From the NCBI GenBank assembly GCA_015485495.1, contig WFTL01000078.1:1-36734 (forward strand): a DNA stretch of 36,734 nt, given 5' to 3'. The notes beneath the pieces are model-generated. The model saw nothing but the letters and a program-made list of their open reading frames with translations, was not told the origin of the DNA and searched no databases. This document shows, one piece after another, positions 10,353 to 19,264 of this stretch. The stretch's first letter is position 1. Every line of letters starts with the position of its first letter. Position numbers and translations under genes: made by a program. Source of the stretch: Planctomycetaceae bacterium (lineage in GTDB: Bacteria; Planctomycetota; Planctomycetia; Planctomycetales; Planctomycetaceae).

Positions 10353-11132
10353 TCAGGCGGCCGACGTGTCGATCATGCCGGCCGGCGATTCGCAGCGAGG
10401 AAGTTTCAGAGTGAACGTGGTGCCGCGGCCCGGCTCGCTTTCCACCCGAATGCGGCCGCCGTGCGCTTCGATGATCTTTCGGCACAGTGCCAGGCCCAGC
10501 CCCGTGCCGCCCTGTCCCCGGGCATCGGCTTTTCGGGTCGTGTAGAACGGATCGAAGATTTTCTGCAGCCGGTCATGCGGGATGCCGGATCCCGTGTCGG
10601 CCACGGACACTTCGGCCCAGCCTTCTTCCGGATTGTCGCGGATGGAAATGCGAATGCGGCCTCCTTCAGGGGTGGCCTGCCGGGCGTTGACAATCAGATT
10701 GATCAGAATCTGCTGGATCTGACTGCTGTTGACCTGCGCCCAGACCGGCCCGGACGGATCGCGATCCAGGCCGATGCGGTGCATCTGCAGGTCCTTCTGG
10801 ACGAGAACCAGAACATCATCGACCAGGCGTCCCAGTTCAGCCGGGTCGTAACGGTCACTCGTGTTGCGCGAATACGCCAGCATGCCGGTTGTGATTTTCG
10901 CAGCCCGCTGAGCGGCCGACAGAATGCGGTCGAACGCCTTGTCCCGAGTGGCCTCGTCCCTGTGCCGAACGCCCATTTTGGCGTAGTTGATGACCGTCGT
11001 CAGGATATTGTTGAATTCGTGCGTGATGCTGCTGGCCAGAGCGCCGACGGAACTGAGCCGCTGCGCCCGAAGAAGCTGTTCTTCCAGAAGCTCGATTTTC
11101 TGAGCATCCGTCATCTGCTGTTCACCGGACAT
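10353..11132 (-). CDS. Soluble sensor histidine kinase (orphan)
   Basis: A 259-residue two-component kinase core with no membrane segment and no PAS or GAF domain. A short coiled helix (about 8-28) leads into the dimerisation domain with the phospho-acceptor His38 in SSITHEFNNIL, then an N box INLIVNARQATPEGG, a G1 box ADTGSGIP, an F box FDPFYTTR and a G2 box GGTGLGLALCRKI. The THEFNN form is the HisKA type seen in NtrB-like kinases. The ATG at 11132 is chosen; a second ATG at 11114 would leave a nearly identical protein, and neither has a strong ribosome site. No partner response regulator is adjacent. It diverges from the Tad-like cassette. Confidence 0.88.
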   Translation of the reverse strand: MSGEQQMTDAQKIELLEEQLLRAQRLSSVGALASSITHEFNNILTTVINYAKMGVRHRDEATRDKAFDRILSAAQRAAKITTGMLAYSRNTSDRYDPAELGRLVDDVLVLVQKDLQMHRIGLDRDPSGPVWAQVNSSQIQQILINLIVNARQATPEGGRIRISIRDNPEEGWAEVSVADTGSGIPHDRLQKIFDPFYTTRKADARGQGGTGLGLALCRKIIEAHGGRIRVESEPGRGTTFTLKLPRCESPAGMIDTSAA

Positions 11133-11533
11133 CGTGATGTCTGCCTGATCTGACCGGAAACCCGATCGGTGCGGAAAAGACGGCCGTTCTGCGAAAATCG
11201 TCCCGGATTCGATCCACAAAACCGCCGCGAACTGTCTGACTGTCATTATCGGCATTCGGAGGTGTCCAGGCTGAATGATGACGCAGCCGTTTCGCCGCAT
11301 GTGATGCAATTCCGGAACACGGCAGGCTTCATGGAGTCCCGAGTGCCGGGAAGATGTGGTTGTCCTGCGACGCGGAAGATGTCCCCGGGAATCGGCAGCC
11401 GCTGCCGAAAGACGGCGAGCCTGAGTGTTTTCCCCCGGGTGGCATTTCCTGTTCTAAGCTGTGAGTGGAACCGGCTTCTGTGTTCCGGTTCGTTCATTTT
11501 CGTGACATTCGTTCCGCACCAAAGGCAGATGCC
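11133..11533. other. Divergent intergenic region between histidine kinase and TadE genes
   Basis: These 401 bases hold the promoters of the histidine kinase (minus) and the Tad-like cassette (plus). I find no gene and no convincing -35/-10 pair. The frame of the TadE gene stays open upstream to 11465, but that part has no similarity to pilin-like N termini. Confidence 0.4.
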
Positions 11534-12016
11534 GTGAACACCATCTCCGTGACAACCCGACGTCGGCGACGCCGCGGATCGTCTCTTGTGGAAACCGCGG
11601 TGGTGCTGCCTGTCTTTTTCACGGTGCTGTTCGGATTCATCGAATTCGGGCACTGCTTCATGACCATCCACACGCTGAATTCCGCGGCCCGGCGGGCGGC
11701 CCGGCTGGGAGTCGGTGAGGGAGTCACGTCGGACGACGTTTACGACCTGGCCTACGCCATTCTCGATTCGGCCATCGACGCGGACCTTGAGAACGTCACG
11801 ATCGAAATTCTGGACGCCAGCATTTTCGATGACAGCACGGTGGATGCATCGCAGATCGATTACAGCCAGCTTTCGTCGGTCGAAGTGGCCGACCTGGAAG
11901 AGCGCACTCTGTTCATGGTCCGAATCGAAGTCCCGTATAGCGAAGTGGGAATCATGGGCCCCCGCTGGGTCGGCAATCTGAACCTGTACGGGCAGGCCGT
12001 CATGAGAAAGGAATGA
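11534..12016 (+). CDS. TadE-like pseudopilin-family protein (first of two)
   Basis: A 160-residue protein with the TadE signature: a basic cytoplasmic start (TTRRRRRRGSSLVE), the conserved Glu five residues into the hydrophobic helix (VETAVVLPVFFTVLFGFIEFGHCF), then an acidic extracytoplasmic region. In Tad systems such minor pseudopilins are processed by a prepilin peptidase and assembled with the pilus. The start is GTG at 11534, preceded by AAAGG at short distance; a GTG at 11465 would add residues unlike the family. The last codons overlap the next gene as ATGA. Cysteine is present only in the helix. It begins the three-gene cassette. Confidence 0.85.
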   Translation: MNTISVTTRRRRRRGSSLVETAVVLPVFFTVLFGFIEFGHCFMTIHTLNSAARRAARLGVGEGVTSDDVYDLAYAILDSAIDADLENVTIEILDASIFDDSTVDASQIDYSQLSSVEVADLEERTLFMVRIEVPYSEVGIMGPRWVGNLNLYGQAVMRKE

Positions 12017-12516
12017 CCATGATGCAGCGATTACTGTGCTCACAGCCTGGCCCCGCACGCCGCGGCGTGGCGGCCGTGGAATGCGCCATCATTCTGCCGG
12101 TGATGCTGTTCCTGGTCCTGGGACTCATCGAACTGGGCACCGCACTGCGGGCCGCCACGATTCTCGATTCGGCCGTTCGTGAAGCCGGCCGTCTGGCCAC
12201 GATGGACTGGCGCTATGTGGTCGACAGCAGCGACACGCCCAACGAGAAAGTGGAACGCGATCTGCGCAACTTCGTCACGGCATCCGGACTGCCGGGGGAC
12301 GATCTGATCGTCAGCATCGAGTTTGCCGAGGGAGACGCAGCCGGGACACCGTTCGACATTTCCGACGAAAACAATGAACTGGAACTGATGCTCATCGAAC
12401 TGCAGCTTCCGTATTCGAGTGTCAGTCTGTTTCCGACCAACTATCTCGACGGAGTCACGATTCGAGCGGGGCTGGTGCTCCGCGCCGGCATTAACAGCGG
12501 CGGCCTGACGAACTGA
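12013..12516 (+). CDS. TadE/TadF-like pseudopilin-family protein (second)
   Basis: A 167-residue paralogue of the preceding gene: ARRGVAAVECAIILPVMLFLVLGLIELGTALRAATIL carries the same conserved Glu and hydrophobic helix, followed by an acidic globular part with beta strands. The ATG at 12013 overlaps the upstream stop as ATGA, but the AAGGA at 12008-12012 is too close to it; the in-frame ATG at 12019 has better spacing and is the likelier initiation point. It would form, with the first TadE protein, a pair of minor subunits as in TadE/TadF. The following 142 bases contain only the leader of the TadG gene. Confidence 0.85.
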   Translation: MTMMQRLLCSQPGPARRGVAAVECAIILPVMLFLVLGLIELGTALRAATILDSAVREAGRLATMDWRYVVDSSDTPNEKVERDLRNFVTASGLPGDDLIVSIEFAEGDAAGTPFDISDENNELELMLIELQLPYSSVSLFPTNYLDGVTIRAGLVLRAGINSGGLTN

Positions 12517-12658: not shown

Positions 12659-14662
12659 ATGAAACAGACTCATCCGAATCCCTGTCACCGTCTGGAAGCG
12701 GATCGTCGACGCGGCGTCTTCTTTGCTCTGGCCATTCTGAGCATGCTGGCGGCTCTCACGTTCGTGGGCATGTCCGTGGACCTGGGCATGATCACCGTGA
12801 CCAAAACCCGCATGCAGGGGGCAGCAGACGCGGCCGCTCTGGCCGCCGCTCAGGAAATCGTCGTGGCCGTGCGGGAAGCCGGCGAAGCAGGAATCACGGA
12901 CGTCCAGGCTGTCCAGGCCCTGTCTGCTCAGCAGGCCCGCGACATGGCCGAACATGTGTGCGACCTGAACGGGTTCTATATCGATCCCGACACAGACGTG
13001 GAACTCGGATCCCGACTGCTCGGATCCGACGGACAGACGTATCAGGAAACCTGGGGCAGTCCGCCGTACAACATGGTCCGTGTCACCATCCGCAAAGACA
13101 ACGAAGACCTGACGGCTCCGGATGCCGAACTGCGGCTGTCCTTCGCACCGGTCATCGGAAAACGGTCCCACACCCTGACCACTCAGGCCACCGCATTCAT
13201 CGAATCCCGCGACATCGTGGCCGTGCTGGACTATTCCGGATCGATGGCCTACGACAGCCTCATCTATTCCGGCACCATCAACCGGCTCGGACTGGCCCAG
13301 GTGGAAAGCAGTCTGGACGACATCTGGGATGCTCTGGTGGCGTCCAATGTCACGTTCAGCGACGACGCGGCGACCGTCAAATTTCCGTCGGGCGGTTTTG
13401 GAGGCATCAATTCGTATGCCGGAACGTACATCAGCAGCAACGATGTCGACACCGTGTACACCACGCTCGGCCTGGACGACGACGGCAGCGGATCATCCGG
13501 CAATTACTGGGACGGCTGGAGTTCCGGATACAGTTCCGGACTGGGCACGACCTACTACACGAACTACGCCTACGGCTATTACTGGCTCGTCCTCGAATCC
13601 GGACCGTATTCCAGCTACCTGTGGTACAACACGAACGGTGGAAGCAGCTACTACTACTACGGCGATCTGTATGACTATCCCGGGGCCGGTTCCGGAAGCA
13701 GCAGCCCCATTCCGTTTCCACAGGAGGGCAAAACAGGAGTCGACGGAACGCTCAACGGTAAGCCGTCCGCGTCCGAAAGCGAAACCATGTGGAAGGACTA
13801 CATCGATTTCGTCATGACGGACAGCTCGCTGAATGCCTATGGATACGGGAAAACATACGGCTACCGCACCCTGATGCATTACCTGATTTCCGAACAGATG
13901 ATGAACCACCAGTCGGAAGATCTGTGGAGAGCTCCCATCTATCCGCACCATGCCGTCAAGGAGGGAATGACTCTGTTCGCCACCTTCCTGGACAACCTGG
14001 GATACGGCGACCATCTCGGACTGGTGACCTATGCCACCACCTCGCGCCGGCAGATCGGACTCTGGGACGACGGCGTCGAAGTGACGGTCGATCTGAATGG
14101 CGAACACCTCACCGATGACTACACGGCCATCGACACCATTCAGGTTCACAAGCAGCCGGGACACTACGACCGTGCCACGGGAATGGGATACGGTCTGGAA
14201 GACGCCATCGAACTGATCGATGAACAGGGCCGCTACGGCGCACAGAAATACATCCTGCTGATGACGGACGGACAGCCGAACCAGTATCCGTACGGATTCG
14301 ACGAAAACAGCCTGCCCCCGGACTGGGACTGGGATGAACTGACCGATTTCGACGGCGACGGCGTGGCCGACTTCACCATCGACAGCAGCTACGGAAGCTG
14401 GGACTCCAACTGGCGTGCGGCTCTGTATGCCTTCATGATCGCCGAACAGGCGAAAGAGGCCGGCATCGTCGTGCATACGATTTCGGTGGGGTCCGGAGCC
14501 GACACGGATCTCATGTCGGCCATCGCCGGCATGACCGGCGGCAGCCACCTGCACGTTCCCGGAGGCACGACGATTGCCGAAATGGAAGCGGATCTGGAAG
14601 CAGCCTTCGCCCTGCTGGCCGGCCGGGTGCCTCCGGCCCGTCTGGTTCCCGGCGACAACTGA
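12659..14662 (+). CDS. TadG-like protein with von Willebrand A domain and Tyr-rich insertion
   Basis: A 667-residue membrane-anchored, extracytoplasmic protein. The N terminus RRRGVFFALAILSMLAALTFVGMSVDLGMI is the TadG-type helix, followed by the conserved helix GAADAAALAAAQEI. A von Willebrand A domain begins at about 185: the MIDAS motif D191-Y-S-G-S195, Thr507 in DRATGMG and Asp537 in LLMTDGQP. Between the first and later strands lies an insertion of over 200 residues that includes 17 tyrosines in residues 281-340. A calcium-type loop DFDGDGVADF is at 563-572. The ATG at 12659 has GGGGGA upstream. Known TadG-vWA proteins are linked to Tad pilus surface adhesion; the insertion is not typical. 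Confidence 0.88.
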   Translation: MKQTHPNPCHRLEADRRRGVFFALAILSMLAALTFVGMSVDLGMITVTKTRMQGAADAAALAAAQEIVVAVREAGEAGITDVQAVQALSAQQARDMAEHVCDLNGFYIDPDTDVELGSRLLGSDGQTYQETWGSPPYNMVRVTIRKDNEDLTAPDAELRLSFAPVIGKRSHTLTTQATAFIESRDIVAVLDYSGSMAYDSLIYSGTINRLGLAQVESSLDDIWDALVASNVTFSDDAATVKFPSGGFGGINSYAGTYISSNDVDTVYTTLGLDDDGSGSSGNYWDGWSSGYSSGLGTTYYTNYAYGYYWLVLESGPYSSYLWYNTNGGSSYYYYGDLYDYPGAGSGSSSPIPFPQEGKTGVDGTLNGKPSASESETMWKDYIDFVMTDSSLNAYGYGKTYGYRTLMHYLISEQMMNHQSEDLWRAPIYPHHAVKEGMTLFATFLDNLGYGDHLGLVTYATTSRRQIGLWDDGVEVTVDLNGEHLTDDYTAIDTIQVHKQPGHYDRATGMGYGLEDAIELIDEQGRYGAQKYILLMTDGQPNQYPYGFDENSLPPDWDWDELTDFDGDGVADFTIDSSYGSWDSNWRAALYAFMIAEQAKEAGIVVHTISVGSGADTDLMSAIAGMTGGSHLHVPGGTTIAEMEADLEAAFALLAGRVPPARLVPGDN

Positions 14663-14726: not shown

Positions 14727-15506
14727 ATCCGGCCCCCCGCTCCTCTGGACGCCGCACGCTGCCGATGGCCTTCCATCTGCAGCCGATATCGAACCGACAC
14801 CGCATCAGGACTTGCCGGTTGTTCACGTCCCGGATTCCCGGACACAGTACCGAGCACGCACTCTTTCAGACGGAAACGGTTTCGGTTCATTCACCGCGTC
14901 CCGAAAACAGACACTGTATCCACCTGACCTGTGGAACCGGCCGGTGGCCGCACCCGACGACTGACAGGCAGGCGATTCCCGACGCGCCCCAGTTCGGTGG
15001 GTCACTTCGACGCGCGGTCCGCGCTTCCAAAGCACCTTCGCCATCAGTGCGCGAAGGCCATGCGGCCAACAGGAGCAAAAGCGCTGACGACGCCGGTCCG
15101 GTCTGTTCCGGAAAATGCGTCCCGACCCAGGAGTCTCCTTCTGCAGCCCGGTGAATCCGCCTGACGCCCTGAGGCAGACTGCGGTGCGTGTGCCGGATAC
15201 AGGTGACGCGGCCAGATCGATAAAAGGGAAGGCCCCCGGACAACCGACAGGATCCTCACGGTCAGCCGTGCTGCCGGGAGGTCCCCCCCCGTTTTTCGTC
15301 CGAGATGCCGTTTCGCGACATACGTTCCTGTGTACAGAACGGGTGTCCCCGCACCCGACAGAATCCAGCGAGCGTGTGCGGCCACGTCATCTGCTGTCTG
15401 CAGAAATCCGAAATCGTGCCTCGCCGGAATCTGATCCGGCCCGGTATTCCTGCCGGGTCAGAACGTGTCATCCCGGTCCCGAACGAGTTACAGGATCGCC
15501 CCTTCG
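14727..15506. other. Long non-coding gap before the hybrid kinase gene
   Basis: I find no supportable gene in these 780 bases: the open frames on both strands have no recognisable domain, and their translations are Arg/Pro-rich as expected from GC-rich noise. A small palindrome GCGCGG-T-CCGCGC lies at 15012-15024. The region must contain the hybrid kinase promoter, which I cannot place. Confidence 0.4.
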
Positions 15507-18044
15507 ATGCCCAGCGAACGCTATTTCCGGAATGCCGTGGCTGCGAGCGCTGATGCGGTCATGATCACGGATATCGACGGCACGATTCGTTACGTCAACG
15601 AAGCGTTCAGCCGGATGACAGGCTGGGAAGCTCGGGAAGTCATTGGTCAGACGCCACGAATTCTGAAAAACGAACGGACGGATCCCGCGGTCTACCGGCA
15701 GATGTGGGCAGCGCTGCAGCGGGGAGAAACCTGGTACGGACGAATCTGCAACCGGCGAAAACCTTCTGCTTCGGCCGCGCCGGCTCTGCCGGTCCTGGGA
15801 CAGACGCCGCCTCCTCAGCCGGACCGCGATTTTTACTGGGCGCATCTGACGATTTCTCCGGTCATCGACGACGGGCGCATCACGGCCTACATCGCGACGC
15901 AAAGAGACATCACGGAAGACGTCGAACGTGAAAAACTCCAGCGCCGTGATCGTGACGATGCTTCGGCCCGCGCGAACATCGCCCGCATTCTTCAGGAACA
16001 GGGGCCTCTGAAGAAACGACTCACGGATTCGCTCAATCTGCTGATGCAGCTTGACCAGCTGAACATCCAGAACAAGGCCGGCATTTTCCTGACGGATGAA
16101 GAGGAGGACGTTCTGAGGCTGTATACGACGTCCGGCCATTTTTCTGATGAATTCCACGAAAAGGAAAAGACCATTCCGAAGGGATTCTGCCTGTGCGGCC
16201 GGGCCGCTCTGTCCGGTGAAATGCTCATTTCCGACGACTGCTTCTGTGATCCGCGTCATGAGCAGACATTCGAGAACATGACACCGCACGGTCACTACAT
16301 CGTGCCCCTCATGCACCGCAGTGCGCCGGTAGGAATCATGTTCCTGTATACGGACCCGTATCCGGCACGCGACGACCGGCGCGTCCAGTTTCTGCAGGCT
16401 GTTGGTGAACTCATGGGGCTCGCGATTGCGAACAGCCGACTGCAGTCCGAGCTGGAAAGAGCACGTGACCGGGCTGACGCCAGCAACCGGGCCAAGAGCC
16501 GGTTTCTGGCCAATATGAGTCACGAAATCCGCACGCCACTGAACGGAATCATCGGGTTTTCCGACCTGCTGCTTCAGCACGCAGACCGCATCAGCGAAAA
16601 AGACCGGGATGAATATCTGGCCAGTATCGCGGCCAGTGGACAGCACCTGCTCGCCCTGATCAACGATGTGCTTGATCTGTCGAAGATCGAATCAGACCGG
16701 ATGGAAGTCGAGAAGATGGATGTCTCGCCCCACGGACTGCTTGCCGAAGTGATCAGCATGATGCGCATGAAAGCCGGCGAAAAAGGACTGTCGCTGGATT
16801 ATCGATGGTCGAGTGCGATGCCGGCGACCATACGCACCGACCCCACCCGTCTGAAGCAGATTCTGGTCAACCTGCTGGGAAATGCCATCAAATTCACGGA
16901 ACGCGGCAGCATCCATCTGACCGCTCACTGGGAACGGAATGATCCCGGCGGAATCCTGACACTCGATGTGGCAGATACGGGTGTGGGAATTCCGCCCGAT
17001 AAACTGGAAACGATCTTCGATGCGTTTTCTCAGGCGGACAACACGGTCACACGAAAGTACGGCGGAACGGGGCTGGGACTGACCATCAGCCGCCGCCTGG
17101 CTCAGGCACTGGGCGGCGACCTTTCCGTGACGAGTCGACCAGGAAAAGGATCAACGTTCAGCGTGACGATCGACACGGGTCCCGCCGATCACGTCCGGCT
17201 TCTCGCGCCGGCGGAGACGGACGGGCTGGCCATGAGCCGGCATTCCGGCAGCACGGATGTTCCCAGTCCCGGACTGACTCCGGTCCGCATCCTGCTTGTG
17301 GAAGACGGCCTCATCAATCGGAAACTGATCACGGCTCTGCTCGCCAATGCGGGCGTCCACGATGTGGATACTGCGGAAAACGGCGCCGTGGGTCTGCGAC
17401 TGGCGTCTGAGAACCGTTATGACGTCATTTTGATGGATATGCAGATGCCCGTGATGGACGGATACGCCGCGGCCAGAGCCATGCGGGAACAGGGTATCCG
17501 CGTACCGATCATCGCTCTGACAGCCCACGCCATGAAAGACGACCGCAACCGCTGCATCGACGCCGGCTGCAGCGACTATCTGACCAAACCTGTCGTGGAA
17601 AAGGAACTGCTTACGGCAATTCAGAAGGCATCAGAAGCTGCATGCAGTGACCGAAACCTGCCGGATGCCGTTTCCGAACCGACAGAAATCACATCAGCGC
17701 TGCCTCTGGACAATCCAGTCTTTCAGGAAATCGTCCAGGAATTCGGAGATTTTCTGATATCCACGGTTTCCGGCATGCAGGAAGCATTTTCTGCAGGAGA
17801 CACCCGGCGGCTGAAGCAGCTCGCTCATAACCTTGCCGGAACTGCCGGCGGCGCAGGTTTCGACGTGTTCACAGAACCGTCCCGAAGACTGGAAACGCTG
17901 GCCGGCGGCGAACAGACCGATGCCGTCGAAGAAACGTTGTATGAACTGACACAGCTTGCCTCCCGCGTTCGCATCCCCGAAGCGTCCGTCTGCTGCTCGG
18001 CGCACACTTCGGAATCCGGCTGCGACGCCCGGACAGAAACATGA
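15507..18044 (+). CDS. Hybrid sensor histidine kinase (PAS-GAF-HisKA-HATPase-REC-HPt)
   Basis: An 845-residue soluble hybrid kinase. Domains in order: PAS (about 5-140, with a Pro-rich loop and [10 protein letters not shown] at its end), GAF (about 165-310), HisKA with His339 in [11 protein letters not shown], HATPase with N box [10 protein letters not shown] and G boxes ADTGVGIP and [12 protein letters not shown], receiver with Asp644 in [12 protein letters not shown], and HPt with His774 in [15 protein letters not shown]. The GAF domain has a Cys/His cluster (C228, C230, C245, C247, H251, H261, H263). There is no membrane segment, so the signal is cytosolic. The ATG at 15507 starts just before the PAS fold. 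The stop overlaps the HD-GYP gene as ATGA; the two should form a phosphorelay. Confidence 0.92.
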
Positions 18045-19264
18045 ATGCGTTCACGACGCCGACAGACAGAAAGCCGTCAGAGCCTCCCCCGCCGTCTCCG
18101 ATGTTCCCGTTCTCCGCATCGAATGCCGCCGAAAGTGTCCGGCATGACGGTGATGCAGCGGGCAGAGGCAGTTTTGACGTGAAAAACGCCGGCATCATGA
18201 TCGTTGACGATGTCCCGTTGAACACCACGATCGCCCGCGCCCATCTGGCCAGTGAGGGGTACCGGAACATCATCACGGAAACGGACTCGACGAAAGTCCT
18301 CAGCCTTCTGTACCAGAAAGACCCGGATCTGCTGCTCCTGGATATCATGATGCCGGAGGTCAGCGGACTGGACATCCTGGAAGTCGTTCGAGGCGACCGG
18401 CATTTTGCTCATCTTCCCGTGCTGATTCTGACGGCGACAACAGATCGCGACCTCAAAATCCAGGCGCTGGAACTGGGGGCAACCGACTTTCTGAACAAGC
18501 CGATCGACGCCCAGGACATGATTCCCCGCGTGCGCAATGCCCTCCTTGTCAAATCGCATCAGGATCATCTGGAAGCGATGGTGCGGGCACGCACGTGCGA
18601 GCTGGAACATGCTCAGAAGGAAGTCGTTTATTGTCTGGCACGGGCTGCGGAATACCGCGACAATGACACCGGCCATCACGTTATTCGCGTCAGCCGATAT
18701 GTGGCTTTGATTGCCCGAAAGCTGGGGCTGGATGAACAGACGGTTGACATGATGTCTCAGGCGTCGATGCTCCACGATATGGGAAAAATCGGGATTCCGG
18801 ATTCGGTCCTGCACAAGCCCGGCAGACTGAATGACCAGGACCGGGACCTGATGAGACGCCACTGCGAATTCGGCTTCGACATCTGTATGCACGCCGGCGA
18901 CACCAAAACGGCCGATGCTGACATCCTGGGTTCCTTTGGACAGCAGCTTCTGGAAGGCTGTTCGTCTCCGCTTCTGCAGATGGCTGCTTCCATTGCCGCC
19001 ACTCACCACGAAAAATGGGACGGAACCGGCTACCCCCGAGGTCTTGCCGGGGAATCCATTCCGCTGGAAGGACGCATCACGGCAGTCGCCGATGTCTTCG
19101 ACGCCCTGAGCAGCAAACGCCCGTACAAAGAAGCGTTTCCGCTGAACCGATGCATCGCGATTCTGCAGGACGGCCGAGGCACACATTTCGACCCGCACCT
19201 GCTGGATCTGTTTCTGGATTCGATGGACGAAGTCCGTGCCATCCGTGGTGAGTTCGACCGGTGA
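18041..19264 (+). CDS. Response regulator with HD-GYP domain (cyclic-di-GMP phosphodiesterase)
   Basis: A 407-residue response regulator. After a Pro/Ser-rich leader of about 48 residues, the receiver domain spans about 50-170 with acidic residues at 56-57 and phospho-acceptor Asp101 in [14 protein letters not shown] coiled linker leads to the HD-GYP domain: HDMGKIG at 245-251, HH at 322-323 and DGTGYP at 327-332, all catalytic-type residues intact, so it is predicted to hydrolyse cyclic di-GMP. The ATG at 18041 overlaps the stop of the hybrid kinase, implying translational coupling and a cognate pair. Its output would lower cyclic di-GMP and could affect attachment or motility. Confidence 0.93.

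Follow-up and report, generated by a model that had tools for sequence, protein, structure and literature searches.

An exchangeable cassette inside the vWA domain of a CpaL/TadG-like protein: a candidate recognition module of a planctomycete Tad pilus

A gene for a TadG-like protein, located on a contig of 36,734 nucleotides from a Planctomycetaceae bacterium (WFTL01000078.1, assembly GCA_015485495.1; this whole stretch of DNA is hereafter the window), encodes a segment with an unusual excess of tyrosine in the middle of a von Willebrand A (vWA) domain. Is such a segment a disordered, sticky loop or a part of a folded domain, and what could it contribute to a pilus protein? The analysis presented here points to a protein that is probably a tip adhesin of the CpaL/TadG kind in a Tad pilus, with an exchangeable recognition module beside its vWA domain.

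The sequence-only reading had described a TadG-type vWA protein split between its MIDAS motifs, an insertion of over 200 residues between DxSxS (191-195) and Thr507, and 17 Tyr in residues 281-340. All three were borne out, by Pfam and the invariance of the MIDAS residues, by an insertion length of 232 residues, and by a count on the translated open reading frame, which placed the 17 Tyr within codons 281-340, exactly positions 13499-13678. This segment was the most Tyr-rich 60-residue stretch anywhere in the 667-residue protein (17 or more Tyr in 60, binomial p 6e-10, with the rest of the protein, 4.4% Tyr, as background). The GC3 of the cassette that encloses it equaled that of the gene (0.76 and 0.75, respectively), so that the stretch is genuine coding sequence and no frameshift artefact. 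Exposure at the surface, also part of the sequence-only reading, is likewise what one would expect of such a protein. Coordinates of the features are collected in Table 1.

Table 1. Positions in the window of the TadE and TadG/CpaL-like genes and of the features of the TadG/CpaL-like protein
Feature	Position	Strand	Description
TadE-like minor pilin 1	11465..12016	+	183 aa; prepilin-like GSSLVE site; Pfam TadE PF07811, E 1.3e-14
TadE-like minor pilin 2	12013..12516	+	167 aa; prepilin-like GVAAVE site; Pfam TadE, E 3.9e-12
TadG/CpaL-like protein	12659..14662	+	667 aa; pilin-like N-terminus and vWA domain; Pfam Tad, Tad_C, VWA
Tad domain, hydrophobic pilin-like helix	12725..12853	+	residues 23-65; PF13400, E 3.3e-10
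Tad_C domain	12908..13195	+	residues 84-179; PF09977, E 1.6e-5
MIDAS DYSGS	13229..13243	+	residues 191-195; D191, S193, S195 invariant
Insertion splitting the vWA domain	13247..13942	+	residues 197-428; length 232
Exchangeable cassette	13475..13708	+	residues 273-350; encloses Tyr-rich 13499-13678; homologous cassettes in seven relatives
Four predicted beta-strands	13553..13660	+	residues 299-304, 307-312, 320-324, 330-334; AlphaFold2 model of the window protein
Conserved helical part of the insertion	13769..13903	+	residues 371-415; alignment and model; kept where the cassette is absent
MIDAS Thr507	14177..14179	+	invariant
MIDAS Asp537 (MTDG)	14267..14269	+	invariant

The vWA domain appeared complete, with the insertion as an addition to it. 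No MIDAS residue is missing, and D191-x-S193-x-S195, T507 and D537 do not vary in the 17 relatives that were aligned. The Pfam VWA match covered the second part of the domain only, because 232 residues separate DxSxSM, in the first part (MIDAS DYSGS), from the conserved PHHAVK block. In the AlphaFold2 model, the vWA core (roughly residues 182-659) aligned over about 170-220 residues to solved vWA domains at Z 17-19.6, among which were SpaC, Mfa5 and PilB, all pilus tip proteins. It did so without the insert, which is therefore no part of the vWA fold; that it might be one had been named as a refutation in the sequence-only reading. A calcium-loop-like motif, DFDGDGVAD, follows the MIDAS Asp (residues 563-571, positions 14345-14371) and is conserved in most relatives. 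The N-terminus did not match the prepilin peptidase rule G-X4-E/F (G/A-X4-F/E), as it reads RRRG-VFFA-L (GVFFAL) with Leu at the E/F position; the protein is therefore labeled CpaL/TadG-like, and not a proven processed pilin. An NCBIfam search gave no named family for it.

The genes around it place the protein in a likely Tad pilus context. Both upstream TadE-like genes do fit the prepilin site rule, unlike the TadG-like protein, and two TadE genes preceded TadG in 16 of 18 named relatives, which are marine and other Planctomycetaceae metagenome-assembled genomes (MAGs); the similarity was weaker in a Pirellulales relative, and the sole exception to this synteny among the 18 was one truncated contig. 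Flp pilins are encoded on other contigs of the source genome, as are two RcpC-like proteins and several ATPases of the T2SSE type; on contig C107, a gap of about 2.5 kb separates one RcpC gene from one T2SSE gene. Because of these genes the source organism likely has a Tad (type IVc) pilus. A histidine kinase gene at 10353-11309 on the minus strand is divergent from the TadE-TadE-TadG genes; it may regulate them, as it is kept beside them in four named relatives (L081-L084, 71-81% identity). Downstream of TadG, positions 15465-19264 of the plus strand encode a hybrid sensor kinase (PAS, GAF, HisKA, receiver, Hpt) followed by a receiver-HD protein, a possible link to surface sensing or second messengers; linkage of this pair to TadG was not conserved in the relatives examined.

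These neighbors bear on an alternative, modeled on a proposal for CpaL, in which the main role of the protein would be mechanosensing or the regulation of a surface-sensing pathway, with the cassette tuning the response to force and not binding. In Caulobacter, holdfast synthesis is stimulated when CpaL is deleted, and a mechanosensory role was proposed for the CpaL vWA domain (PMC12607857). The histidine kinase genes and the HD-domain response regulator beside the gene agree with such a role, as does the retention of the upstream kinase in the four relatives, but kinase linkage was absent in most relatives examined, and this account, drawn by analogy, keeps an appreciable though minor chance of being right.

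The insertion itself is ordinary in kind for TadG/CpaL proteins, because 47 of 47 measurable relatives have it (161-317 residues) and CpaL has a beta-rich insert at the same place. The idea that it might be common among TadG proteins therefore held in part, for the long insertion; what the insertion contains varies. The exact cassette site is LGL-cassette-PFPQEG, with LGL (residues 270-272) and PFPQEGK (residues 352-358) both conserved and, in the window protein, about 78 residues between them, the Tyr-rich stretch included. Gimesia-type proteins and L011 displayed only about 10 to 15 residues at this site, i.e., an empty type. More distant relatives (L006-L030) harbored one or two copies of different beta-rich segments, slightly upstream of the cassette site when the alignment was read by eye. 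Such modules were seen in the insertions of L014, L015, L017, L024 and L028-L030 (e.g., VTFKGTEVYVSSTKDLSNVVLEF...), and in those scanned with Pfam no family covered them. In L025 (776 aa), a long and mostly helix-like insert with repeated-looking segments takes the place of the beta module.

Close relatives carried a different domain at the very same site. In both congeners (L002 and L003), 69% identical overall to the window protein, the cassette site was occupied by a domain with the beta/gamma-crystallin signature. Crystallin cassettes with a DDxINS motif span about residues 270-370 of L002, L003, L005, L035 and L037, and a profile of these five found the solved structures of Protein S (2.6e-8), 2kp5 (9e-8) and clostrillin (2.8e-7). 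A crystallin identity of the window cassette was ruled out, as the Tyr-type and crystallin-type profiles are unrelated (hhalign probability 0.1%) and no crystallin was among the matches of the Tyr-type profile to solved structures.

The distribution of the two types fits cassette replacement inside an otherwise vertically inherited gene. Trees of the flanks, with the cassette left out, called for at least three changes for carriers of the crystallin type and four for carriers of the Tyr type. The AU test rejected a single clade for either type: forcing carriers of the crystallin type together made lnL worse by 144 (p 4e-59), and for carriers of the Tyr type p was 4e-10. Both types occurred within genus g42, and likewise within the genus of the window. 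The genomes behind this pattern are mostly MAGs, as are the sources of nearly all of the closest sequences. Paralogy was considered as a source of the pattern and rejected: genomes in the Tyr/crystallin group hold one copy each, except G168, and the flank tree ignores cassette type. Literature searches found no report of a beta/gamma-crystallin domain together with vWA and pilus, and no papers on planctomycete TadG/vWA. A CpaL/TadG-like protein with an insert is of a known kind; what stands out is the exchange of unrelated cassettes at one site, which the sequence-only reading had no means of seeing.

Alternatively, the cassette could be only a structural spacer that separates the halves of the insertion or shields the MIDAS, the choice of domain being neutral. 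Domains of the beta/gamma-crystallin type are often structural and calcium-stabilized. Two unrelated domains serving at one site, and Gimesia-type proteins that keep everything else without a cassette, would also suit a spacer. Repeated exchange inside a genus looks more like changing specificity, however, and Tyr-type cassettes diverge faster than their flanks (28% identity between L033 and L034, from one genus, versus 63-76% in the flanks); neither observation is proof, and a neutral spacer is judged unlikely.

Tyr-type cassettes, of about 55-75 residues, formed a small family. Besides the window protein, seven relatives carried one (L033, L034, L004, L036, L038, L039 and L040). Leave-one-out profiles found the cassettes of L034, L004 and L036 and three cassettes of g53 at 32-66 bits, and that of L033 at 16.5 bits, while shuffled sequences reached 14 bits or less. 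The window cassette scored 3.5 bits against the profile without L033 (shuffle maximum 3.1) and is 63% identical to L033; as the direct score is barely above shuffles, its membership rests on L033. In sequence and profile searches covering 170 genomes of the family, 397 of the class and 392 of the phylum, confident matches to the Tyr segment were found in this gene only, in eight genomes, with two copies in G168. Both TadG-like copies of that genome, L039 and L086, have a Tyr-type cassette. Weak extra matches (L052, L061, L062, L064 and L071) turned out on reading to be unrelated proteins. Scanning of genome contigs with the single protein gave no match, and with the alignment as query it gave 18 loci. 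The viral contigs searched gave no match, and Pfam and solved-structure profile searches gave no match for the Tyr-type cassette. So far, the putative Tyr/Ser/Gly/Trp beta-meander family has been seen nowhere else than in these TadG-like proteins.

Alignment and structure prediction both bear on whether this cassette folds. Columns 17, 33, 43, 56 and 72 of the cassette alignment were aromatic in 5-7 of 7 relatives, and five of the window Tyr fall at such columns. About 11 of the 17 are extra, not aromatic in most relatives and for the most part specific to the window protein and L033, so this part of the enrichment is unexplained by the fold. AlphaFold2 modeled four cassette strands in the window protein (alignment of 20 sequences) at low confidence (pLDDT 50-57), and confidence was low over residues 275-299 and 340-348 as well. 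The L039 cassette, modeled alone, was predicted as a compact beta-meander of five strands (pLDDT about 89-94 over residues 31-80) from a shallow alignment of nine sequences, and its strand positions correspond to those of the window model. This high-confidence prediction argues against disorder. No clear match to the Tyr-cassette model was obtained with Foldseek (best E 0.8) or VIA (best Z 3.5), and the missing match is no evidence either for a new fold or for a known one. Many of the weak structural matches were single beta-propeller blades, which fit a plain four-stranded meander and show no relationship.

A disordered low-complexity loop with adhesive or phase-separating behavior and possibly tyrosine oxidation or cross-linking, as the sequence-only reading had suggested, is thus quite unlikely: a composition of 17 Tyr plus Gly, Ser and Trp in 60 residues, the low-confidence segments of the window model and the Tyr shared with L033 alone would suit it, but the conserved aromatic columns and the compact meander predicted for a homologous cassette speak against it, no short-motif repeats were seen by eye, and a tyrosinase family search of the genome had no match, which says little as control genomes had none either. 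If the models are right, a strongly skewed amino-acid composition is compatible with a folded domain and is no sure sign of disorder.

The reading preferred here, a tip adhesin with an exchangeable module, could work as follows. The pilin-like N-terminal part would anchor the protein in a filament together with the two TadE-like minor pilins, and the MIDAS-bearing vWA domain would bind a ligand or sense force. Between the MIDAS DxSxS and Thr, the insertion carries an exchangeable small beta domain at one exact site: in the window protein a predicted Tyr/Ser/Gly/Trp-rich beta-meander of four or five strands, in close relatives a beta/gamma-crystallin domain or none. Next to the vWA domain, the cassette would most likely give the protein another recognition surface, specific to the lineage, and its replacement would alter what the pilus tip adheres to. 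Analogy with CpaL and with the modular pilin PilB leads us to place the protein at the pilus tip with its minor pilins; that it is exposed and adhesive, and what its Tyr residues do, are likewise inferences. A Tyr/Ser/Gly mix is favored in synthetic binding proteins, Tyr being regarded as the residue that makes effective contacts most generally (PMC4575168 and references therein); likeness to such binders, an analogy and not evidence, makes a putative binding surface of Tyr/Ser/Gly/Trp composition plausible. More tentatively, and with somewhat less than even confidence, the site could be an allelic vWA cassette site of Planctomycetaceae Tad tip proteins, at which close relatives exchange unrelated small beta domains, or none, by recombination, so that the specificity of adhesion or force sensing is swapped and the vWA and pilin parts do not change.

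What determines the specificity of Tad pili is the question that this cassette series addresses. A natural series of similar putative tip proteins, distinguished by a single cassette (Tyr-type, crystallin or empty), would offer a direct test of the role of the insert in binding or surface sensing.

The closest known counterpart is CpaL of Caulobacter crescentus, described in 2025 and called a TadG orthologue by its authors (PMC12607857). CpaL has the same pilin-like N-terminus and vWA domain, with MIDAS residues D160, T162, S164, T470 and D515, and the same anatomy, a beta-rich region between the MIDAS DxTxS and Thr (PMC12607857). Its insert, described without known relation, consists of two six-stranded beta-barrels lacking strong Dali matches (PMC12607857), whereas the insertion here combines a conserved helical part with an exchangeable site; the two proteins also differ in the G-X4-E/F prepilin site, to which the window protein does not conform. 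PilB of Streptococcus sanguinis (PDB 7b7p, 7ba2) is a modular type IV pilin and adhesin that joins a pilin part to a vWA domain with MIDAS, and two arms flank its MIDAS, one of them a four-stranded beta-sheet (PMC8179133). Its vWA domain aligns to the window vWA model at Z 17.6. It differs in belonging to a type IV pilus of a monoderm and not to a Tad pilus, and the sections of the PilB paper drawn on here do not describe unrelated domains replacing each other at a single site inside the vWA domain (PMC8179133). The vWA tip adhesins SpaC (PDB 6m48, 6m3y), which was the top Foldseek match of the window model and whose vWA domain aligns to it at Z 18, and RrgA (PDB 2ww8), with arms beside the MIDAS, differ in that they belong to sortase-assembled Gram-positive pili and have an unrelated N-terminal part. 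By profile, the alternative cassette of the relatives is a member of the microbial beta/gamma-crystallins (Protein S 1prr, 2kp5, clostrillin 3snz); unlike these known crystallins, the domain in L002, L003, L005, L035 and L037 interrupts the vWA domain of a pilus protein.
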